IMG/VR virus record: IMGVR_UViG_3300034683_000362
Span: 1-40,333 of that record
Reading direction: 5' to 3' (one strand)
Length of the DNA stretch: 40,333 nucleotides
Source of the DNA: a virus
The position numbers were made by a program, and so were the translations under genes. A model generated the notes under the pieces. The model was not told where the DNA came from, searched no databases, and worked only from the letters and a program-made list of their open reading frames with translations. Positions 22,171 through 40,231 of the stretch are shown in pieces (position 1 is the first letter of the stretch; each line of letters opens with the position of its first letter).

Positions 22171-23214
22171 CTATTTGTTTTTAAAAACCTTATCAAAATA
22201 AGAATCAATATCTAAAATATCAGATTTTTTAACTTTTATATTCAATTTATTATTTTTAATATATTTATTTAAATCTTTAACTTCATTATCTTCTTCGCAT
22301 TTATATGGTGATACAACTATTTCTTCAATGAAATCTAAATTAGTTAAATCTCTTTTAATATTATCTTCTTTAAAATTATCATACCCTTTATATATAATTA
22401 TTCTAAACTCTTTCTCATGTTCATAACTTGGTTTTTTTTGTAAAAAAAATGAATATTTATGTAATAAATCTTCATAATCTTTATCTATTGGACTTGCTGT
22501 GCCTTTTCGCTTTTTATTTGATAAAAAACCTATATTAAATTGATGATCATCTATATTTTCTCCATAAAAAACATTTTCAAAAAATGCATATTCTTGTTCA
22601 TATTGAATATTCTGTAGTAATTTCATCTTGTTAACTTTAATAGCAAAACCATCTTTAGCATATAATTCCCACATTGCTAATGATTCATTTTCAGATTCAT
22701 ACCAACAGTTTATGAATACATCTTTTTTCATAATTTCATTAAAATTTCTAATACTTTCTTTAAAAGGAATTTTTATTTCTTCATTATAAAATTTTTCTCC
22801 AAAATAATCTATCAATTTATTTTTTATATCTTTTGAATTTATTTTTAGATTATCCACTTTATCATTATTTGATATTTTTTTAATATTTTCTTTAATTTTT
22901 CTGTAAATATGTTTAGCTTGTTTAAATCCAGAATAGTTTATTAAATATTTTAATTCATTTTTTATAAGATTCTCCCCTTTAAGTACTTTTTCAAAAATAT
23001 ATTTTAAATCATCTGAATATAAATCATAATTTTCATGCATTATTCTTTTTGATATTATGCCTTCAAATTTATCTCTAAATTTATCTGCTCTTGAAAAATA
23101 AATGTTATTTTCTTTTATAATGCTTTCTAACTTCCAATAAGGCATATACCTCCACAATGTAACCTTATCATCAGTTTTTTCCTTTTTGTATATATTTTTA
23201 GTTTCATCTACCAT
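22171..23214 (-). CDS. DUF2971 family protein, independent cargo gene
   Basis: A 347-aa protein with the DUF2971 pattern: LWRYMPYWKLESIIKENNIYFS (18-39), RDKFEG, then FINCWYESENESLAMWELY and GFAIKVN at about 180-210, and EHEKEFRIIIY near 275. The biochemical role of this family is not settled; members are frequent in phages, plasmids and defence-rich regions. The gene has its own consensus promoter and is bracketed by terminators, so it can be expressed in the lysogen. It separates the late regulator from the terminase genes. An immunity or conversion role is inference. Confidence 0.75.
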   Translation of the reverse strand: MVDETKNIYKKEKTDDKVTLWRYMPYWKLESIIKENNIYFSRADKFRDKFEGIISKRIMHENYDLYSDDLKYIFEKVLKGENLIKNELKYLINYSGFKQAKHIYRKIKENIKKISNNDKVDNLKINSKDIKNKLIDYFGEKFYNEEIKIPFKESIRNFNEIMKKDVFINCWYESENESLAMWELYAKDGFAIKVNKMKLLQNIQYEQEYAFFENVFYGENIDDHQFNIGFLSNKKRKGTASPIDKDYEDLLHKYSFFLQKKPSYEHEKEFRIIIYKGYDNFKEDNIKRDLTNLDFIEEIVVSPYKCEEDNEVKDLNKYIKNNKLNIKVKKSDILDIDSYFDKVFKNK

Positions 23215-27373: not shown

Positions 27374-28114
27374 TTAATTCATCTCCTTTAAATCATTAAA
27401 AAGTGAAATCTTTAAATCTATATCTTCTTTATTTTTTTTAGATCTTAAAATTTTTAATTTTCTATAGTTTCCCTTAACATCAAAAAACTTCAAAATTTTA
27501 TTACTATTCCTATTTTCAGAGAAAATTTGAAGAAGTAAGGCTTGTATTTGAATAAAATATTTATCTTGTGCATTATCTATATAATCTATTTCTTTCTTTA
27601 TATATTTAAAAATTGACTTATGTACTTTATTTTCTTCATAATCTATTTTTCTTTTTAAATATTCTTTTAAATCATCTTCTATTTCTTCAGCCATTAAATG
27701 TAAATTCATCATTTTTGAAATAAGAAAAGAATTGGCAATAGTATCACAATTTTCTTCAACTAATTTAAAAATTTTTATTTTTTCTTTAGAATTATCTAAA
27801 TATTTAAAAGTTTCAAAATTATCTTCACTTATTTTCATAAAATTATTTTTTATTATTTTAATTGCATTGTCTTGTAATTCATCTATTCTATTTATCTCAT
27901 TTTCAATATATTGAATATTATCAATAATTGCTGGATAATATTCTTTTGCTACTAAAATATATTCTTTTAGATTATCTTCTATTTCTTCCATTTCTTGATA
28001 TTTTTGAATTAATTCTAAAGAAAAGTTTGCTTTTAAATAACTTGTTTTGTTTTCATTTATAATTTTATTTTTTAAATTTAAATTCAAATTTACTTCTTTA
28101 GCTCTTTTAAGCAT
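27374..28114 (-). CDS. Helical protein with an internal ~100-residue duplication
   Basis: A 246-aa, highly helical protein of unknown family. Two copies of a similar unit can be seen: EMEEIEDNLKEY at 41-52 and MAEEIEDDLKEY at 141-152, each followed after ~20-30 residues by an I..YI..EI..ID..QD pattern. So the protein arose by duplication of about 100 residues. It overlaps the HEAT-repeat gene by eight bases and is probably translated with it. A structural or partner-binding role is likely; nothing catalytic is visible. Confidence 0.65.
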   Translation of the reverse strand: MLKRAKEVNLNLNLKNKIINENKTSYLKANFSLELIQKYQEMEEIEDNLKEYILVAKEYYPAIIDNIQYIENEINRIDELQDNAIKIIKNNFMKISEDNFETFKYLDNSKEKIKIFKLVEENCDTIANSFLISKMMNLHLMAEEIEDDLKEYLKRKIDYEENKVHKSIFKYIKKEIDYIDNAQDKYFIQIQALLLQIFSENRNSNKILKFFDVKGNYRKLKILRSKKNKEDIDLKISLFNDLKEMN

Positions 28115-29408
28115 TCACAAATTCCTCCTTTTCTTCTTTTTCTTCATATATTTCTTTTAATCGTTGATTTGATATTTTTTCAATAACTTTTAAAGCTTCT
28201 ATTCTTAAACTTGCTTTTTCAGATGAATCTTTAAGTATATCTTCTACAGCAAATATATATGTAATCGCTTTAAATTTTTTTATTACCGTTAAAGCATTTT
28301 TTCTAAGTGTAGACGGATATATTTTATTATTAGATATAATTGCTAATTCAGGTAAATAAATTTCTAAATTTAATTTTTTTATTATTTTTATTGCCAAAGA
28401 TATCCTTTTACTATTTTTTGATTCTAATAATTTTTTAACATGCTTTTCGAGTTTATAATCTGAATAATATAAAAGATATTCTCCAGCTGAATTAATAATT
28501 TCATCATCATTAGTATTTAAAAAAGATCTTGCATTTTCAACATAATTCATATTATCTTTTTTCTTTTGTACAAAAAAGAAAAGTTTAATAAGTTTTGAAT
28601 CTTTTGATTCGAGATAGTCATCAAGTGAATTATCTAAAGCATTGATATCGTATTTAATTAAAATTCTTACAGTTCTGTCTATTATTTCAGAATCATTTTC
28701 ATTTTTAATTATTTTTATAGCAATATTTTTAATTCTTTCTTTTCCTAAAATAGGCAAAAAACTAAGCATTATATTTTTTGTAGTTTTATTAAATTTAAAA
28801 AATAAATCGTATAACTTATAAAGATCTTCTACAGTATTTTCTTCATTAAATGCTCTTAATGCATCTTTTTTAATTTTTGTTGTTGCTGAACTTAATAAAA
28901 TTGACTTTATATCTTTTAAACCCTCTAAAAATTTTTGAATGTATGAATAAGGATCATCTTTAAATATAGAAGCTATTACTTTTTTTTGAGAAGGATTATA
29001 TTCTATATATGTTTTTAAAAATTCATATCTAACACTTCCATTTGCATCATTTATAGCTTTATTTTTTATGTCTTCATTCAAATATTCTTTTTCTATTATT
29101 TGTCTTATTGCATCTTTTCGGAGATGATGTGAAAAATCATTAAATTGTGTAAAAAGAATTTCTTTTCTTTTTTCTTCTGGAAGTTCTTCTATTCTTTTTC
29201 TTATATACCTATATGCTTCTTTTCTAACTCTTAGATCATTATTCTTAATTAATTCAAATATTTTATGATTCAATGGATATTTTAATTTGTCAAGTTCTCT
29301 TAAAGAAGCTGCTATAAGAACTGGATAAGGACTTTCAAGATATATTAAATGTTTTTTTATTTCTTCATTTATTATTTCTTCTTGAAATATTATTCCTATA
29401 TCTGTCAT
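28107..29408 (-). CDS. HEAT-repeat protein
   Basis: A 433-aa protein made almost wholly of paired helices of HEAT type. Examples are ESPYPVLIAASLRELDKL, NDLRVRKEAYRYIRKRI, HHLRKDAIRQIIEK, ANGSVRYEFLKTYI, SEIIDRTVRILIKYD, SKRISLAIKIIKKL and KASLRIEALKVIEKI. HEAT solenoids bind proteins or DNA; no enzyme motif is seen. It is near the start of the early operon and overlaps the next gene. Large HEAT proteins are unusual in phages of this size. It may act on a host or replication target. Confidence 0.75.
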   Translation of the reverse strand: MTDIGIIFQEEIINEEIKKHLIYLESPYPVLIAASLRELDKLKYPLNHKIFELIKNNDLRVRKEAYRYIRKRIEELPEEKRKEILFTQFNDFSHHLRKDAIRQIIEKEYLNEDIKNKAINDANGSVRYEFLKTYIEYNPSQKKVIASIFKDDPYSYIQKFLEGLKDIKSILLSSATTKIKKDALRAFNEENTVEDLYKLYDLFFKFNKTTKNIMLSFLPILGKERIKNIAIKIIKNENDSEIIDRTVRILIKYDINALDNSLDDYLESKDSKLIKLFFFVQKKKDNMNYVENARSFLNTNDDEIINSAGEYLLYYSDYKLEKHVKKLLESKNSKRISLAIKIIKKLNLEIYLPELAIISNNKIYPSTLRKNALTVIKKFKAITYIFAVEDILKDSSEKASLRIEALKVIEKISNQRLKEIYEEKEEKEEFVNA

Positions 29409-31320: not shown

Positions 31321-31950
31321 ATGTTTAGAGGCGATAGACTCAAAAGATTAAGAGAGCTAAAAGGTTTTACCCAGGCTCAATTAGTTGAAAAATTAGGAAA
31401 GTATAATTCTGGAGAATATAAAATTAAACAGAGTGTATTATCTAGATATGAAAGAAATGAAATCGCACCTAAAGCTAATAAATTATTGCTATTAGCTGAG
31501 TTTTTTAATGTAGATCCAGATTATTTATTGGGAAATATTGATACATATCAGAAAAAAGACAAGCCAAAAGCTAAAGTTGGTAAGGTGAGTTTTTATGATA
31601 AACCGTTAATCAAAGATGCTTATATAGAAAATGGAATAGTTTATTTTGATGAAATAAAAAAGATAACTCTTCCAGATATTAAAAATTGTGATTTTTTAGT
31701 TCTATCTGAAGATGACGATATGAATCCAAAAATAATTAAAAATGATTTAGTTATTTTTCAGAGAAAAGAATCTTTTGATACAGGCGATATTGTTTATGTG
31801 ATTATAAATAATAAGGCAAAAATACGGAAAGCTATTTGGATAGATAAGCCTATGGCTTTATTCCAGGATATGTATGGAGAAAAACAGGAAATAACAAAAG
31901 ATTTCAAAATAGTAGGAAAATATACAGGAGTAATACGAATGGAGCCCTAA
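31321..31950 (+). CDS. CI/S24-like repressor with substituted catalytic residues
   Basis: A 209-aa protein with an N-terminal Xre helix-turn-helix (LRELKGFTQAQLVEKL, then QSVLSRYERNEIAP) and a C-terminal LexA/CI S24-type fold (MNPKIIKNDLVIFQ; FDTGDIVYVII; VGKYTGVIRM). In self-cleaving members the motif is GDSMxP and a later VKR. Here the serine position reads Asp133 (DDDM) and the lysine position reads Arg169. No Ala-Gly hinge is obvious. It therefore probably cannot cleave itself after DNA damage. GAGGTGA precedes the ATG. A terminator follows directly. Confidence 0.82.
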   Translation: MFRGDRLKRLRELKGFTQAQLVEKLGKYNSGEYKIKQSVLSRYERNEIAPKANKLLLLAEFFNVDPDYLLGNIDTYQKKDKPKAKVGKVSFYDKPLIKDAYIENGIVYFDEIKKITLPDIKNCDFLVLSEDDDMNPKIIKNDLVIFQRKESFDTGDIVYVIINNKAKIRKAIWIDKPMALFQDMYGEKQEITKDFKIVGKYTGVIRMEP

Positions 31951-32076: not shown

Positions 32077-32823
32077 ATGATCAAAATTCAAAATAATAAT
32101 AATAAACATAATGAAAAAATTAACACATTAATTAATAATATTAATTCTGCATTATCTGAATTAGAAGAATATATAAGAAATGATTTAAATAAGAATACTC
32201 CAAAAGATAATTTGTATTTACCTAAAATTGAACTTCCAAGAGGATATATTAGAAAAAAAATATATTTTGAAAAGTCCTATAAATTAAATAAAATTTTTGA
32301 TTCGTTTCAAGAAAATAAACTTATTGATAATTTAGCCTATTCTCTTCAATATACTGATTTTCTAAATTACTTATTTAATAGATTTAAAATAGGTGAAGAT
32401 GGTTTATCAGTAGGCTTGATATTTAGGAAAACGTCAATTATATATATAGTAATAATAATTGAAACTATTACTATAGGTATATTAAAAAAAGCTATTAAAG
32501 AATGTAATAATTGTGAATATAAAAAATGCTTAATAACAAAAAAACAAGTATTATTTGGAAACAATCGTGGTAAAACTTTTAAAGATGCTTTAGATAAATT
32601 ATATGATGTCAAAATAATTAATAAAGAGGAACATGATTTATATAAATATCATATAGATATCAGAAATCAAGTGCATCTTTTTTTAGCAAAAGAAAATGCT
32701 TTTAGAGAAAATCTTAATGTAAAAGATTATTCTAAAACTATAAAACTTTTAAAATTAACCAATCAATTATATGATAGATTTCAAAATATACAATGCAATA
32801 AAATCAAAGAATCTTTTGTTTAG
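32077..32823 (+). CDS. HEPN-like protein of unknown function
   Basis: An up to 248-aa, mostly helical, Lys/Asn-rich protein. Near the C-terminus it has HIDIRNQVHLFLAKE, with Arg196-Asn197 and His200. This resembles the RN...H active-site motif of HEPN RNases, though the spacing (R-x3-H) is one shorter than the common R-x4-6-H. A short Cys-rich stretch (CNNCEYKKC) precedes it. The ATG at 32077 abuts AAGGAG with no spacer; an ATT at 32086 has a nine-base spacer and may be the true start. It precedes the HicB/HicA-like pair and may belong to the same conflict locus. Confidence 0.55.
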   Translation: MIKIQNNNNKHNEKINTLINNINSALSELEEYIRNDLNKNTPKDNLYLPKIELPRGYIRKKIYFEKSYKLNKIFDSFQENKLIDNLAYSLQYTDFLNYLFNRFKIGEDGLSVGLIFRKTSIIYIVIIIETITIGILKKAIKECNNCEYKKCLITKKQVLFGNNRGKTFKDALDKLYDVKIINKEEHDLYKYHIDIRNQVHLFLAKENAFRENLNVKDYSKTIKLLKLTNQLYDRFQNIQCNKIKESFV

Positions 32824-32834
32824 TTATAGTAATA

Positions 32835-32878
32835 TTAAAATAAACATTATTTTAACCATAAAATGATATTATTATGGA
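32835..32878 (+). promoter_or_regulatory. Inverted repeats before the HicB-like gene
   Basis: TTAAAATAA/TTATTTTAA with a 3-base loop is a perfect 9-bp inverted repeat (32835-32855). It is followed by CCATAA (32856-32861) and TTATGG (32872-32877), which can pair and border the GGAGG ribosome-binding site. HicA/HicB operons often control themselves, so these are candidate operator and translation-control elements. Confidence 0.45.
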
Positions 32879-32887
32879 GGAATAAGT

Positions 32888-33919
32888 ATGAATACTTTTA
32901 AAATTCGGTATGAAGGTCAAAATATATCTCCAGAAAACATAAGAATCGATTTCCTTATTGAAACATTACCTAAAATACAGAAAATACTAGCATTACTTTC
33001 GGAAAGCTATCTACATAAAAAAGATATTAAAAAAATTAATAAAAATACTATAAAAGAATATAATTTAAGCATTAAAAATATTGAAACAGGTAGCGTAGTA
33101 CTTGAAATAGGTGAATTTATAGAAAACAAAAAATTAATTAATAATGAAAATAAAATTCAAAAAGCAATTGAACTTTTAAATGAAACAAATAGTATTTTTA
33201 AAAGTGGAGAAATAGATAGTTTTGATGAAAAATATCCCTATAACACCAAAAAACTAGTTCTAAAAGAATTTAAAAAGATTTCAGAATATACTAAAAATAA
33301 CCATATTGATTTTTCTTATTATTATAATCAAAACCATATTTTATATAAAGAAGAATTTTTTGAAAATCTAGAAGAAAAAATTTTTAAAGACGATATAATA
33401 ATTAGTAAAGAAATAAAAATTGGCATGGTTTCTTTAAATGACGTTTATAAAAATAATACTGAAGTAAGAGCAGGAGAAAAAGATAAAATTAAAATACCTA
33501 AAAAATATTATAAAGATTTTATTAAATTCTTTAAAAAACCTGTATTAATAAATGGAAAATTTAGGATCGAGAAAAATAACCCAGAAATATCTCTTAAAGA
33601 ATTAGAGAAGGTGGAAGAATTGCCTAAGAATTTTAATGTAAATAAAATAAATTATGAAAATAGAAGTTTTATGTTTAAGAACCCTTTAAACCTTAAATAT
33701 GAGGTACAAGAAGATGGATATACAGAAATCCATATACCTTTATTTAATACTTTAGAATATGGAGATAATTTTGCTGAAGCATGGTTTTATTTAAAACAAG
33801 AAATAGCAGATACATATGATCTATTATTTGAGTCAAAGTATAAAAACAAACTTTCTAAATTCTCTAAAGAATTAAAGGATTATCTATCAAAGAATTTGGA
33901 GGTGAAGAAAAATTTCTAA
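32888..33919 (+). CDS. Large HicB-like putative antitoxin
   Basis: A 343-aa protein. It opens FKIRYEGQNISPENIRIDFLI and the middle is mixed and Lys-rich. The C-terminal ~80 residues contain TEIHIPLFNTLEYGDNFAEAWFYLKQEI, which resembles the GdtleEAl motif and helix of HicB antitoxins. The gene after it encodes a HicA-like protein and overlaps it by eight bases. HicB proteins are normally 80-150 aa, so this is a much larger version. TATGGAGG precedes the ATG. Antitoxin role is inferred from the motif and gene pair. Confidence 0.6.
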   Translation: MNTFKIRYEGQNISPENIRIDFLIETLPKIQKILALLSESYLHKKDIKKINKNTIKEYNLSIKNIETGSVVLEIGEFIENKKLINNENKIQKAIELLNETNSIFKSGEIDSFDEKYPYNTKKLVLKEFKKISEYTKNNHIDFSYYYNQNHILYKEEFFENLEEKIFKDDIIISKEIKIGMVSLNDVYKNNTEVRAGEKDKIKIPKKYYKDFIKFFKKPVLINGKFRIEKNNPEISLKELEKVEELPKNFNVNKINYENRSFMFKNPLNLKYEVQEDGYTEIHIPLFNTLEYGDNFAEAWFYLKQEIADTYDLLFESKYKNKLSKFSKELKDYLSKNLEVKKNF

Positions 33920-34211
33920 CTTTAAACCAAAAGAAATAGAAAGAGCTTTGAAGAAAAAAGGGTTTGAAATGTATAACACACATCATAAAAGATTTATTTT
34001 TACTGATAAAAATGGAAATATTTGTAAGGAGTTAAGCACTAGACTAAGTCATAGTAACAAAAAAGATTACAATGATAAACTATTAAATTCAATAAAGAAA
34101 CAACTAAAATTAGATAATAAAAATCAAGTAGAAGATTTAATTAACTGTCCATTATCTGAAGATGAATATAGAAAAATAGTAAATCCCAAAGTAAATAGTA
34201 ATTTAATATAA
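33912..34211 (+). CDS. HicA-like toxin starting at ATT
   Basis: A 99-aa protein. Residues 2-17 (SNFKPKEIERALKKKGF) match the first helix of HicA, and NTHHKRFIF carries the His equivalent to the catalytic His of the HicA GSHh motif. The rest includes STRLSHS and INCPLSEDEY, a pattern seen in extended HicA-like proteins. GGAGGTGA (33898-33905) is about nine bases from the ATT at 33912. The only standard start in frame is a TTG at 33948, which would cut off the conserved helix, so ATT is the likely start. HicA proteins cleave mRNA; activity here is inferred. Confidence 0.65.
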   Translation: MSNFKPKEIERALKKKGFEMYNTHHKRFIFTDKNGNICKELSTRLSHSNKKDYNDKLLNSIKKQLKLDNKNQVEDLINCPLSEDEYRKIVNPKVNSNLI

Positions 34212-34212
34212 G

Positions 34213-34240
34213 CCTCTGATTAATCAGAGGTTTTATTTTT
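34213..34240 (+). terminator. Terminator of the HicB/HicA-like operon
   Basis: The 18-bp perfect palindrome CCTCTGATTAATCAGAGG is followed by TTTTATTTTT, one base after the HicA-like stop codon. Confidence 0.85.
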
Positions 34241-35043: not shown

Positions 35044-36141
35044 ATGGAAGAAAATTTATTTGAATATTTAGCTTCAAAAAGAAGTGATTATAGTTCGGAA
35101 AATGTAAAATATTCTGTTGGTGAAATAATAAGAATGTATGAAAAAGAAAGATTATTTATACAACCAAATTATCAAAGATATTTTAGATGGGATATAGAGC
35201 AAAAAACAGATTTCATAGAATCTTTATTATTAAGATTGCCTATTCCACCTATATTTATTTATAAAAAAGAACAAAAAAAATTAACTTATGAAGTACTAGA
35301 TGGACTTCAAAGGATTGCAACAATTTTAGAATTTACAAATTCATTAAAAGAAAATATTAAATCAACTTCTTCTAACGGCCCATTAAAATTAGGTAATTTT
35401 AAAATATTGACAAAATATAATAATATGAATTGGAAAGACTTTAAAGAGAATGATTTAGATTTTGCATTTGAACAATCAAGCTTATTATTTACAATAATAA
35501 GTACTTCTGCTAATGAAAAATTTGAAACTAATTTTGGAAATATGAATATTAAATATGAAATTTTTAGAAGGTTAAACACAAATATTTCTCCTTTATCTAA
35601 TCAAGAAATTAGAAATGCTATTTTACAAGGTTTAATGAGTAATATTTTTAATAAAATTGATGAAAAATTACCTAAAATTTTAGAAAGTTATTTACCAAAT
35701 TCTTATTTAGAACAAAGAAAAGATGTCGAAATATTTATAGAATTTTCTTTAATTAAAAATTTTAATAAAAATAGAAATTTAATTGAAAAAAGTAATGATT
35801 TATCTGAAATATTAAATTATTATATTTATGAATTAACAAAAGAACAATTAGAAACAGAATTTAATGAGTTTATAGATTTTATTAAATTAAGTGAAGAGCA
35901 CAAATTTAAAAGATTTTATTCTAATGAAGGAACTTATAGAAATACTTTTATTCAATTTTTCTTTGAAACTTGTGCAAATATATATTTTATGGATAAAAAT
36001 AAGTTAAAAAATTACAATAATTATTTTAATAGATCTTATGCAGACATTATTCAAGAAAGAAAAACTAATAATCCAAATGCAAAAATTAGATTTTTAGAAG
36101 CTAAAAGGTATGCAGAAGATATTATAAAAGACTCTATTTAA
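35044..36141 (+). CDS. DUF262 domain protein (GmrS-like nucleotidase domain)
   Basis: A 365-aa protein. The N-terminal DUF262/ParB-like domain has IQPNYQRYFRWD (39-50), LPIPPIFIYKK (65-75) and the signature LDGLQR at 85-90, normally DGQQR, followed by a conserved hydrophobic helix. The C-terminal half is helical. It lacks the DUF1524 HNH nuclease found at the end of GmrSD type IV enzymes, so the effector may be encoded by the next gene. DUF262 proteins use nucleotides to power or sense; this member's substrate is unknown. First gene of the cassette, with GGAGGG upstream. Confidence 0.82.
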   Translation: MEENLFEYLASKRSDYSSENVKYSVGEIIRMYEKERLFIQPNYQRYFRWDIEQKTDFIESLLLRLPIPPIFIYKKEQKKLTYEVLDGLQRIATILEFTNSLKENIKSTSSNGPLKLGNFKILTKYNNMNWKDFKENDLDFAFEQSSLLFTIISTSANEKFETNFGNMNIKYEIFRRLNTNISPLSNQEIRNAILQGLMSNIFNKIDEKLPKILESYLPNSYLEQRKDVEIFIEFSLIKNFNKNRNLIEKSNDLSEILNYYIYELTKEQLETEFNEFIDFIKLSEEHKFKRFYSNEGTYRNTFIQFFFETCANIYFMDKNKLKNYNNYFNRSYADIIQERKTNNPNAKIRFLEAKRYAEDIIKDSI

Positions 36142-36152
36142 GGTGAAACATT

Positions 36153-36833
36153 ATGAATAAAAAAATTAAAAAAAATACGAAAAAAATAAACGACTTGTTA
36201 TCAAATGCTATAAGTAATTTATCAGATTTAAAAAATTTTTTAAATCAGTCAAAAAACGAAGATAATTATAAATACCTTATTTTTTCTGGTATTTCTTATT
36301 CAAATGCTATTTATGAATATATAATAGTTGAAATAACTAATATTTTTTTAAAAATAAAAAAAAAGAATTCTTATGATAATTTATACATATATATGTCAAA
36401 ATTTAACTATTCTAAATTAAAATCTGATTTCCTTGAAAATTCTATTAAAAACACTCTTTCTATTGAAGATGAAAGATCACAAGTAGATTCTAAAATTATG
36501 GATACATGTATACAAAATAAAAATATTTCAAGAATAGAATATATTATTAAATTATTAGAAATAGAAATAAGTGATACTGAATACATTGATTATACTAATA
36601 TATTTGATTTTAATTCATCTGAAATTAATAATTTCGATAATCTATTAAATTCTATTATCAGTAAATACAAAGAAAGAAACGATCTTTTACATGGTTCTGT
36701 TTTTTATGAAGAACAATTGGATTCATCTAAATTTGATGAAACACTTGATTTTATAAATAATTTAATATTTTTATTTAAAATAATTAAAGAAGAATTAATA
36801 AAAAAACCTATAGACATTTATAGTGAACTATAG
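36153..36833 (+). CDS. HEPN-domain protein, probable RNase effector
   Basis: A 226-aa, all-helical protein. Near the C-terminus it has KERNDLLHGSVFY with Arg175-Asn176 and His180, the exact R-x4-H active-site pattern of HEPN RNases. The helical layout before it resembles the MAE_28990/MAE_18760-like group, which I recall as often found beside DUF262 genes. It starts 12 bases after the DUF262 stop with AAGGTGA, and is followed by a methyltransferase. It is a good candidate for the toxic effector of a defence system. Confidence 0.72.
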   Translation: MNKKIKKNTKKINDLLSNAISNLSDLKNFLNQSKNEDNYKYLIFSGISYSNAIYEYIIVEITNIFLKIKKKNSYDNLYIYMSKFNYSKLKSDFLENSIKNTLSIEDERSQVDSKIMDTCIQNKNISRIEYIIKLLEIEISDTEYIDYTNIFDFNSSEINNFDNLLNSIISKYKERNDLLHGSVFYEEQLDSSKFDETLDFINNLIFLFKIIKEELIKKPIDIYSEL

Positions 36834-36858
36834 TATAATCATCATAGGAGGTTATACT

Positions 36859-38319
36859 ATGAATGATATTGAATTATACTTTTATGAAAATGAATTAAAT
36901 TACTTAAAAAAACATAGTATAAATTATAGAAAAGAATATTCTCAATATTTTACAAGCTTTGAATATTCAGAAAAAATTATAAATCATATTAATCTTGATG
37001 AATACAAAAATTATGATTCTTTAAATATTTTAGAGCCTTCAGCGGGTACTGGAAATTTAATACTAAAAATAGTGGAAAAACTATCTAAATTTAACAATAT
37101 TAAAAATGTTCATATAGATATTTTTGAGTTAGATGAAGAAATTATACCTATATTAGAAGATAATTTAAAATATTTATTTTTGAAATATAATTTTTTTACA
37201 TACAAAATTCATAATCGTGATTTTATAAATTATAATATAGAAAAAAAATATGATATTATAGTTTCCAATCCTCCTTATAAAAAATTAAATCTTAATAAGA
37301 TTGGTAAGTGGAATAAATATTTCTTAGGACAACCAAACATATATCAATTATTCATTTTAAAGTGTTTATCTTTATTGAATGAAAACGGTAATTATTGCCT
37401 TATTTCTCCAAAAAGTTTTTATTCAGGAAAGTATTCTGAATTAATTAGAAAATTTATTTTTGAAAATTTTTCTATTTATTCAATTCATTCTTTTAATGCA
37501 AGAAATCACATTTTTGGTAATTCAGTAATTCAAGAAGTTATAATTACTAGTATAATAAAAAAAGACATTGAAAAAACTAAAATTTTCTATAATGGTAATA
37601 CAAACTACGAAATATCAAATAAAAGCAATTTTATAAATAAAGAAAAAAATATTATTCTTGTTCCTAATAATATAGATATTTTTAATACAATAAATACAAT
37701 AAATAAAAAATTTACTAAATCACTTGATGACTTAGGATATAAACTCAAAATAGGTGAAGTTGTACCCTTTAGATCTAAAAAAATAGTTGAATTGTCTAAT
37801 GAACACTATAAAAAAAATAAAAATTTTATTCCTCTATTAAGAGTAAGACATATAGAAAATAATACTATTAATTATAAAGAATTAAAAACTAGAAATACAA
37901 AATATGTTTCAATTAAGTTTGATAAAGGAAGAAACATTTTCATTAAAAATGATAATTATTTAATTTTAAAAAGAGCTATTGATAAAGAAAATGAATTTTT
38001 ATTTCAACCTATTATATATAAAAAAAATATTTTTGATTCAGATTATATTTCTTTTGAAAATAATCTAATTTATTTTTATAAAGAAAAAGAAACTTTTAAA
38101 CTGGAAGAATTATATGGCTTATTCTGTATATTTAATAGCAAGATATATGATAATTACTATAGGTCACTAAATAGTTCTCATGGAATAATAAAATATGAAT
38201 TAGAAGAAATGAATTTCCCTAATAAAAATCAAATTATAGCCCTAGGTAATAGACTAATTAAATTAAAATCACTTGATAAAGAAACTTGTAATGAATTAGT
38301 ATTAAATTTATTAATATAA
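36859..38319 (+). CDS. N6-adenine DNA methyltransferase
   Basis: A 486-aa protein. Motif X is YSQYFTSFE (28-36), motif I LEPSAGTGN (58-66), an acidic residue after a strand (DIFELDEE), and the catalytic motif IV NPPY at 137-140 (IVSNPPYKK), diagnostic for adenine-N6 or cytosine-N4 activity. The 200-residue C-terminal part should be the target recognition region (LLRVRHIENNTINY; HGIIKYELEEMNFP). Order X-I-IV-TRD resembles Eco57I/BsuBI-type enzymes. The ATG at 36859 follows AGGAGG by 7 bases; a GTG at 36823 overlapping the HEPN gene is less likely. It would mark host DNA as self. Confidence 0.85.
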   Translation: MNDIELYFYENELNYLKKHSINYRKEYSQYFTSFEYSEKIINHINLDEYKNYDSLNILEPSAGTGNLILKIVEKLSKFNNIKNVHIDIFELDEEIIPILEDNLKYLFLKYNFFTYKIHNRDFINYNIEKKYDIIVSNPPYKKLNLNKIGKWNKYFLGQPNIYQLFILKCLSLLNENGNYCLISPKSFYSGKYSELIRKFIFENFSIYSIHSFNARNHIFGNSVIQEVIITSIIKKDIEKTKIFYNGNTNYEISNKSNFINKEKNIILVPNNIDIFNTINTINKKFTKSLDDLGYKLKIGEVVPFRSKKIVELSNEHYKKNKNFIPLLRVRHIENNTINYKELKTRNTKYVSIKFDKGRNIFIKNDNYLILKRAIDKENEFLFQPIIYKKNIFDSDYISFENNLIYFYKEKETFKLEELYGLFCIFNSKIYDNYYRSLNSSHGIIKYELEEMNFPNKNQIIALGNRLIKLKSLDKETCNELVLNLLI

Positions 38320-38454: not shown

Positions 38455-38622
38455 ATGATAAAATTAACTCTTTTTGTAAATGAAGATGAATTAGATTTTT
38501 TATATGAAATGAAATTTGAGCTAACTGGAACTTTTAATTTAAGTCAAAAAGAATACTTTAAATATTATAAATTTCTGTGCAGATTAGATCAAATTGATAT
38601 TAAAGGGGATGATATAAAGTGA
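38455..38622 (+). CDS. Small protein coupled to the integrase
   Basis: A 55-aa protein with TGGAGGTGAAT before the ATG at 38455. It is acidic, mixed beta-helix (IKLTLFVNEDELDFLYEMKFELTG) and of unknown family. Its TGA overlaps the GTG of the integrase gene in GTGA, so the two are translated together. Small ORFs next to serine integrases can be directionality factors or regulators; that is a guess based on place. Confidence 0.65.
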   Translation: MIKLTLFVNEDELDFLYEMKFELTGTFNLSQKEYFKYYKFLCRLDQIDIKGDDIK

Positions 38623-40157
38623 AAAAAGCTGTAGCTTATACAAGATTCTCTTCTGAAAATCAAAATGATGTATCAATAGAAGCTCAAATGAGGGCAATTA
38701 AAGAATATGCAGTTAAAAATGATTATGAAATAGTAAAACAATATATTGATAGAGCTAAGAGTGCTTCTTCTGATAAAAGACCAGAATTTCAAAAAATGAT
38801 AAAGGATTCTAAATCCGGAAATTTTGATGCTGTTATTATACATAAGATCGATAGATTTGCAAGAAATATGAAAGATGCAGCTTGGTATAAAGCAGAGTTA
38901 AATCAGTTTAATGTTGACTTACTATCTGTAAATGAAGATTTAACTGGAGAATCTGGAGATTTAGTTTTTAATATCATGGCCAGTGTAGCTGATTGGTATC
39001 TAAAAAATCTAAAAAATGAAATCGATACTAAGGTTAGAATTACTGCTGAAAAAGGTTATTTTTTAGGTGGAATTCCTCCTTTTGGTTTTTCAACAGAAGA
39101 TACTTATGAAGAAATGAAATATGGAGATCGTATAAAGAAAATCAAAAGAAAAAAATATATAATTAATGAGGAAGAAGCTAAAATAGTTAGATATATGTTT
39201 GATTTAGCAGAAAAAGGATTTTCTACTATAAATATACAAAATAAATTAAATGATGAAGGCTATAAAACAAGAAAAGGCAAAAAATGGCATTATTCATCAA
39301 TTTATGATATGTTACACAACCCAAAATATTCTGGAACTTATGTTTATGCAAGAGGAAATCACAGAACATCACATATAAAAAGAGATGATGCAGTAGTTAT
39401 TCCAAATGCTATTCCTGAAATAATTTCTCAAGAAAAGTGGGAATCTGTTCAAAAAGAAATGAAAAAACGTAGAAGAATCAAATCAAACACAAAACAATAT
39501 TTGTTAAAAAGATTAATTTATTGTGGTGAGTGTAAAAATCATATGATTCCATACGGTGGAAATTATTCACGATATGTATGTTCAAAATGGGAAAGTGAGA
39601 GAAAAAAGGGGATTAAACCAGACCACTTTATGTCGATAGCTAAAGACAAAGTAGAAAACTATGTTATTGACTTTATGATAAATGAAGTATTTAAAAACAC
39701 TGATACAAAAATTATTGCAGATAATATTAATAAGTTATCAAAAATTAAATTGGAAAGATCCAAAGAAAATATTAATAAATTAAATGAAAATATTGAAAAA
39801 TTAAAACTAAAGAAAGAAAGATTAGAAAAGAATTATTTAAACGCTGTTGAATCTGGATTAGAATCTTCTGTATTTTTAAATAGAATAAAAGAAATAAAAA
39901 ATAATTTAAAAGAACTAAAGAATGAATTTGATCAGAAAGATTTTAGATTACCTGATATAGATGAAAAGATTATTCAAGATATGCTAAATGATTCATTAAA
40001 AAAATTATTATCTGGGAGTTTTGAAGAAAAAAGAAAATTACTATCTGAAATCATAGAAAGAGTTGAAATAAGAAACTCTAATAATAGTAAAAGAAAATAT
40101 ATAAACATTAAATTGAAAGGGGTAAGTCTTTATATCAGTAAATTACAAGATATATGA
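38619..40157 (+). CDS. int: Large serine integrase
   Basis: A 512-aa large serine recombinase. The N-terminal resolvase domain (1-140) has YTRFS with catalytic Ser11, and a conserved HKIDRFAR at 75-82. The recombinase domain (about 150-290) is followed by a zinc ribbon starting Cys302-Cys305 and Cys321; the fourth ligand is not a clear Cys and may be His336. A coiled coil (about 370-460) with Leu/Lys/Glu heptads, used for synapsis, precedes the basic end. It starts at GTG overlapping the small upstream ORF. It lies 49 bases from attR, as expected. It would integrate the phage without host factors. Confidence 0.93.
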   Translation: MKKAVAYTRFSSENQNDVSIEAQMRAIKEYAVKNDYEIVKQYIDRAKSASSDKRPEFQKMIKDSKSGNFDAVIIHKIDRFARNMKDAAWYKAELNQFNVDLLSVNEDLTGESGDLVFNIMASVADWYLKNLKNEIDTKVRITAEKGYFLGGIPPFGFSTEDTYEEMKYGDRIKKIKRKKYIINEEEAKIVRYMFDLAEKGFSTINIQNKLNDEGYKTRKGKKWHYSSIYDMLHNPKYSGTYVYARGNHRTSHIKRDDAVVIPNAIPEIISQEKWESVQKEMKKRRRIKSNTKQYLLKRLIYCGECKNHMIPYGGNYSRYVCSKWESERKKGIKPDHFMSIAKDKVENYVIDFMINEVFKNTDTKIIADNINKLSKIKLERSKENINKLNENIEKLKLKKERLEKNYLNAVESGLESSVFLNRIKEIKNNLKELKNEFDQKDFRLPDIDEKIIQDMLNDSLKKLLSGSFEEKRKLLSEIIERVEIRNSNNSKRKYINIKLKGVSLYISKLQDI

Positions 40158-40206: not shown

Positions 40207-40231
40207 TTCAAATCCCTTCGTTGCCTCCATT
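40207..40231 (+). repeat. attR: attR core (25-bp direct repeat)
   Basis: Exact copy of 212-236, carrying the 3' end of tRNA-Cys without the rest of the tRNA. It lies just after the integrase gene. Sequence left of it (40158-40206) is phage and includes GTTATCTAAGGTAAC, a possible arm of the attachment site; sequence right of it is host. Confidence 0.93.

Follow-up and report, generated by a model that had tools for sequence, protein, structure and literature searches.

A divergent, prophage-borne hicBA module assigned to Class 8

Organization of the locus

The window (the whole stretch of DNA analysed, 40,333 bases) is a virus record, which in fact represents a prophage whose ends belong to the host. 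A direct repeat of 25 bp, TTCAAATCCCTTCGTTGCCTCCATT, occurs at positions 212-236 and 40207-40231 and matches the 3' end of a tRNA-Cys gene (158-234). The two copies are the attachment sites of the prophage, which sits in tRNA-Cys. The one integrase seen, a large serine recombinase, is unusually paired with a tRNA target. The structural genes of the prophage are encoded on the minus strand, and the predicted hicBA pair is located between the repressor and the integrase, in the zone where temperate phages usually keep their cargo genes. The features discussed below are as follows:

31321-31950: CI/LexA-like repressor
32077..32823, plus strand: upstream orphan gene, 248 aa
32888..33919, plus strand: predicted hicB antitoxin gene, 343 aa, ATG start with the ribosome-binding site GGAGG just upstream; domains of the product: N-terminal (residues ~1-165), middle (~166-250) and HicB-fold C-terminal (~250-340)
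33912..34211, plus strand: predicted hicA toxin gene, 99 aa, likely ATT start
33984..33986, plus strand: codon of HicA His25, the His at the catalytic position
34210..34233, plus strand: Rho-independent terminator with stem AAGCCTCTGATT/AATCAGAGGTTT and a T-rich tail behind it
38619-40157: large serine integrase

The organization of the unit agrees with the original prediction: both reading frames are present where it had placed them, the antitoxin and toxin genes overlap by eight bases (33912-33919), and a strong terminator closes the unit. The terminator scan detected a sole hairpin, at 34210-34233 (2 terminator-like sites, corresponding to both strands of it, versus 0.4 expected), which was also detected by the inverted-repeat search.

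An in-frame TGA codon at 33903, upstream of the hicA frame, leaves ATT at 33912, ATA at 33936 and TTG at 33948 as the only possible starts of the toxin gene. The ATT codon has GGAGG 9 bases upstream and is aligned with the Met of two relatives (loci L007 and L010), while initiation at this position retains helix 1 of HicA, hence ATT 33912 is the likely start. Since this weak start lies within the end of hicB, translation of the toxin is probably coupled to that of the antitoxin, with the antitoxin being produced in excess.

A second defence-like cluster (35044-38319) adjoins the hicBA pair and encodes a GmrSD_N/DUF262 protein (PADLOC NsnA, 2.5e-44; PD-T4-2_A, 1.3e-26), a 226-aa protein with a HEPN-like motif RNDLLH and an Eco57I-type methyltransferase. 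In addition, a 347-aa protein encoded near the packaging genes (22171-23214, minus strand) matches the PADLOC candidate family PDC-S31 (3.2e-16). Meanwhile, a 433-aa protein (28107-29408, minus strand) reads like alpha-helical (HEAT-type) repeats and has no PHROG match.

The predicted toxin and antitoxin

By sequence and modelled fold, the 99-aa protein is a HicA toxin, for which toxic and RNase activity is predicted. A search with the Pfam model HicA_toxin (PF07927), one of the checks proposed for the original prediction, gave 27.2 bits for this protein (P0001), a margin of only 0.2 bits above the curated cut-off of 27, and 27.7 bits in the six-frame search; the same profile is matched by 12 of the 15 members of the extended-HicA family. 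A further match was obtained in PHROGs (phrog_353, "toxin", 2.1e-7). His25, which had been expected in a strand, is located in the second strand region, is invariant in all 15 relatives and occupies the position of the GSH-motif histidine in the alignment with ordinary HicA proteins.

The AlphaFold2 model of the toxin alone (pLDDT 80.6) displays a HicA-type fold, consisting of a helix (residues 6-15), three strands (18-22, 27-31 and 37-44) and a second helix (55-64). This core is followed by a C-terminal extension of two helices (70-78 and 83-96), which carries the motif DLINCPLSEDEY. In the PDB, the three best Foldseek matches were all to HicA, namely to 1whz (probability 0.99), 6hpb_A and 6g26_E; 1whz bears the title of a hypothetical protein in the library and is taken by us to be HicA. 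Neither the HicA nor the HicB model reaches E < 0.001 in Foldseek. In the HicA tree, the toxin of the window forms the longest branch (2.65).

The partner encoded upstream is, on the grounds of family profiles and modelling, a HicB-type antitoxin predicted to neutralise HicA. With 343 aa, it is well above the usual HicB size, as had been noted before. As a single sequence it gave nothing significant in Pfam (including the HicB models), NCBIfam, PHROGs or PADLOC, and its use as a direct query retrieved nothing from viral contigs, genome contigs, phages or plasmids. A leave-one-out profile was built from 17 large partners from other genomes (one of them cut by a contig end), with the protein of the window excluded. 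This profile matched the 343-aa protein over nearly its full length (E 2.2e-14) and had no other match among the 244 frames of the window. The identity of this HicB to its relatives is only 11-20%.

A division into three domains is visible in the family profiles. The resemblance of the C-terminus to HicB, claimed originally from a sequence signature, was borne out by the structure predicted for the antitoxin alone: the C-terminal domain (last ~95 residues), modelled mostly at pLDDT 77-92, has the HicB fold and matches 2yzt with a Foldseek probability of 0.99 (rmsd 1.0 A over 42 columns). The C-terminal family profile likewise retrieved 2yzt first (E 0.003). We take this protein (TTHA1756), which the PDB title calls uncharacterized, to be HicB-like. 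The C-terminal profile also reaches Phd/YefM-HicB antitoxins encoded beside ordinary hicA genes, and 5 of 19 family members match the Pfam PHD_like model (PF12910) weakly, the best value being 0.003.

When the fold of the complete antitoxin was searched, neither the N-terminal nor the middle region gave a relative, and the matches listed besides 2yzt had low probability. The N-terminal region (~1-165) was modelled at moderate confidence; a link to DUF7946 is a mere possibility, for which the bait gave only 12.9 bits and the family was matched in 0 of 120 genomes, with the controls being silent too. The middle domain, modelled at a pLDDT of about 22-47, is conserved across the long family and is the part of the window HicB that departs most from the family pattern. 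Its family profile retrieved no solved structure as a relative.

Relatives of the pair and the large part of the antitoxin

All relatives were reached through the toxin and not via the antitoxin query, the first lead being a weak HicA match in the Geminocystis plasmid NZ_AP014827.1 (L001, L003). The toxin of this plasmid is annotated as hypothetical, and the 356-aa antitoxin frame directly upstream of it crosses the record origin and is absent from the gene table. A search of 84,980 species genomes for DNA encoding the toxin tail DLI[DN]CPL[ST]xxxY yielded 18 loci, including 12 true relatives; the other 6 were discarded as encoding an unrelated protein, apparently TrmFO. Searches with the toxin profile in 398 Bacillota and 244 Cyanobacteriota genomes identified relatives in 12 (E 2e-18 or better) and 5 of them, respectively; from 249 Pseudomonadota genomes the seed alone was retrieved. 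Ordinary HicA proteins rank below the extended relatives, with E values of 1e-7 to 1e-3, which is what related families should show.

Wherever the sequence was readable, a HicB-domain gene was found directly upstream of the extended toxin, and this arrangement occurs in Cyanobacteriota, Bacillota, Planctomycetota, Verrucomicrobiota, Chlorobiota, Pseudomonadota and archaea. The recurrence of the pair at these loci lends indirect support to the predicted neutralisation of HicA by HicB. The partners outside the window comprise 16 full-length large proteins (310-363 aa) as well as shorter ones. Overlap of the two genes is frequent at the related loci and amounts to exactly 8 bases in two of them (L012, L021). 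The related pairs form isolated chromosomal cassettes among housekeeping genes, as exemplified by the pair between a trpB-like gene and trpA (L017) and that beside pyruvate kinase (L005). No relative of the pair was found among the viruses searched, so its carriage by a phage appears to be unusual. Two of the loci have a composition of their own: a Candidatus Symbiobacter contig (L013, 1794-3725, minus strand) carries two HicA and three short HicB-domain genes in tandem, and at another locus (L045, 610-1440, minus strand) the large antitoxin is found in two frames adjoining a damaged toxin, apparently a decaying module.

At five loci (L004, L013, L017, L020, L066) the extended toxin type is accompanied by a short partner of 127-170 aa, in which the profiles of the N-terminal and middle domains found nothing. 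Since the same toxin type occurs there with a short HicB, these two domains, both conserved in the long family, look accessory and probably have a regulatory role; by the same comparison, the HicB domain alone probably neutralises the toxin and the large part adds control. The toxin of one short-partner locus (L017) is nested in a well-supported group of long-partner toxins in the HicA tree, and hence the large antitoxin part was probably lost or exchanged at least once. The suggestion that the large N-terminal part of the antitoxin may be a sensor is a reasonable one.

Interpretation and comparison with known systems

The genetic contexts of HicA have been sorted into 14 classes (Gerdes 2024, mBio, PMC10865869). 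In Class 8, hicB lies upstream of hicA, to which it is closely linked or which it overlaps, and encodes a protein of 331-356 codons with three domains, an N-terminal domain of unknown function, a middle lysyl-tRNA-synthetase-like domain and a C-terminal HicB domain, whereas HicA has about 95 aa and two additional helices at its C-terminus; a DNA-binding domain is not recognisable (PMC10865869). As far as we found, Class 8 is known in the literature only from sequence and models, with no laboratory test. By its gene order and overlap, the length and domain division of HicB and the two extra helices of HicA, the predicted pair of the window is a Class 8 hicBA in the sense of PMC10865869. As it matches a class described in 2024, it is to be regarded as a divergent new member and not as a new kind of system. 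The family, the fold, the gene order, the overlap and the association of such toxins with HicB proteins devoid of the N-terminal part are all computed results.

The best explanation as a whole, to which we assign a probability of about 0.87, is that of a prophage-borne type II HicBA module of Class 8 with the following mode of action. HicA would be an RNase with a double-stranded-RNA-binding fold, whose C-terminal extension of two helices is conserved. The first gene is that of the antitoxin, and the toxin would be read weakly from the ATT codon inside the end of hicB, probably in a coupled manner. The three-domain HicB would neutralise HicA via its C-terminal partial-RNase-H (HicB) domain, while the N-terminal and middle add-on would most likely control the release or production of the toxin, either by sensing a ligand, a nucleic acid or a phage product, or by autoregulation. 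Once released, HicA would cleave RNA and thereby arrest growth. On a prophage, such a module would most likely protect against other phages by abortive defence and/or help to retain the prophage. Toxicity, neutralisation, coupling, sensing and defence are what we infer. The GmrSD_N, HEPN-motif and Eco57I-type neighbours at 35044-38319 make a defence role of hicBA more plausible, yet do not prove it. The more specific proposal that the N-terminal and middle region of Class 8 HicB senses infection (through a phage product, nucleic acid or nucleotide) and thereby releases HicA seems rather doubtful to us. If it were true, Class 8 hicBA would be a sensor-gated defence and not an ordinary toxin-antitoxin pair, and the prophage would use it against competing phages.

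A plain addiction module, in which the pair would only stabilise the prophage, with the N-terminal and middle domains of HicB serving translational or transcriptional autoregulation (e.g. as OB-like, RNA- or DNA-binding domains) instead of sensing, is an alternative with a substantial, albeit less than even, chance of being correct. Such a role would be consistent with the cargo position between the repressor and the integrase, with the description of the middle domain as lysyl-tRNA-synthetase-like, and with the lack of a recognisable DNA-binding domain, which implies regulation from elsewhere (Gerdes 2024, PMC10865869). However, nothing was found that links these domains to nucleic-acid binding, the profile of the middle domain has no solved relative, and the occurrence of the relatives as isolated chromosomal cassettes argues against pure prophage addiction as the role of the family. 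The original prediction had also seen a possible operator in an inverted repeat that precedes the antitoxin gene. Among perfect repeats, the best one found there (9 bp, 32835-32843/32847-32855) lies in a very AT-rich stretch and was equalled in 70 of 1000 dinucleotide shuffles; since it is not significant and Class 8 has no recognised DNA-binding domain, the operator is unproven.

Decay is another way to account for some peculiarities of the locus. A formerly active module whose function is lost or weak could explain the longest branch in the HicA tree, the ATT start of hicA and the deviating middle domain of HicB. Both frames are nevertheless fully open, the similarity of HicB to its family still extends over nearly the full length, and His25, the CPLSxDEY tail, the ribosome-binding sites, the 8-base overlap and the terminator are all retained, so that a remnant seems unlikely. 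A three-gene arrangement, in which the upstream 248-aa protein would be a divergent member of the HEPN type and act jointly with HicBA, has to be considered as well. Its gene ends 64 bp before hicB with no terminator in the gap and is therefore possibly co-transcribed with it, and the protein contains an RNQVH stretch near its C-terminal end. The HEPN motif is, however, Rx4-6H, whereas only three residues separate R and H in this stretch (Rx3H). No HEPN match was obtained in any library, and nothing significant was found for the protein in Pfam, PADLOC, NCBIfam, PHROGs, the PDB, phages, plasmids, viral contigs or 299 Bacillota genomes. The HEPN identity proposed for this protein is consequently not supported. 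Because no similar ORF accompanies the other hicBA loci, the 248-aa gene is not conserved as part of the module, and a three-gene system appears very unlikely.

When the predicted HicBA module is compared with the published Class 8, the two share the position of hicB as the first gene and the overlap of the genes (8 bases in the window), a three-domain HicB (343 aa) which falls within the 331-356 codons of the class and matches the family profile over nearly its full length, a HicA (99 aa) with two extra C-terminal helices, and the lack of a recognisable DNA-binding domain. The pair of the window differs in the low identity of its antitoxin (11-20%), the ATT start of its toxin and its location on a prophage. 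With the classical hicAB systems (E. coli K-12 and others; Classes 3-4) it has in common the HicA fold, the His at the catalytic position and the partial RNase H domain of HicB. The gene order, however, is reversed, HicA has a C-terminal extension, and in HicB the HicB domain is preceded by ~250 extra residues and is not followed by an HTH/RHH domain. Class 5 hicBA (Phd/YefM-HicB; PHD_like, PF12910) also has hicB first and a related C-terminal HicB domain, but in its antitoxin the ~250-aa N-terminal and middle region is replaced by a DNA-binding N-terminus of the Phd/YefM type, and its HicA is short. Finally, the five short-partner relatives share the extended HicA type and the homologous C-terminal HicB domain, in contrast to which their antitoxins of 127-170 aa lack the N-terminal and middle domains.

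What is added to Class 8 is thus a very divergent, prophage-borne member with an ATT toxin start, which is far from the other members and is placed where superinfection-defence cargo usually sits, together with relatives of the same toxin type that have short antitoxins and the isolated chromosomal cassettes. The comparison with the short antitoxins provides a clean test of whether the HicB domain alone is neutralising, and of what the ~250 extra residues respond to.
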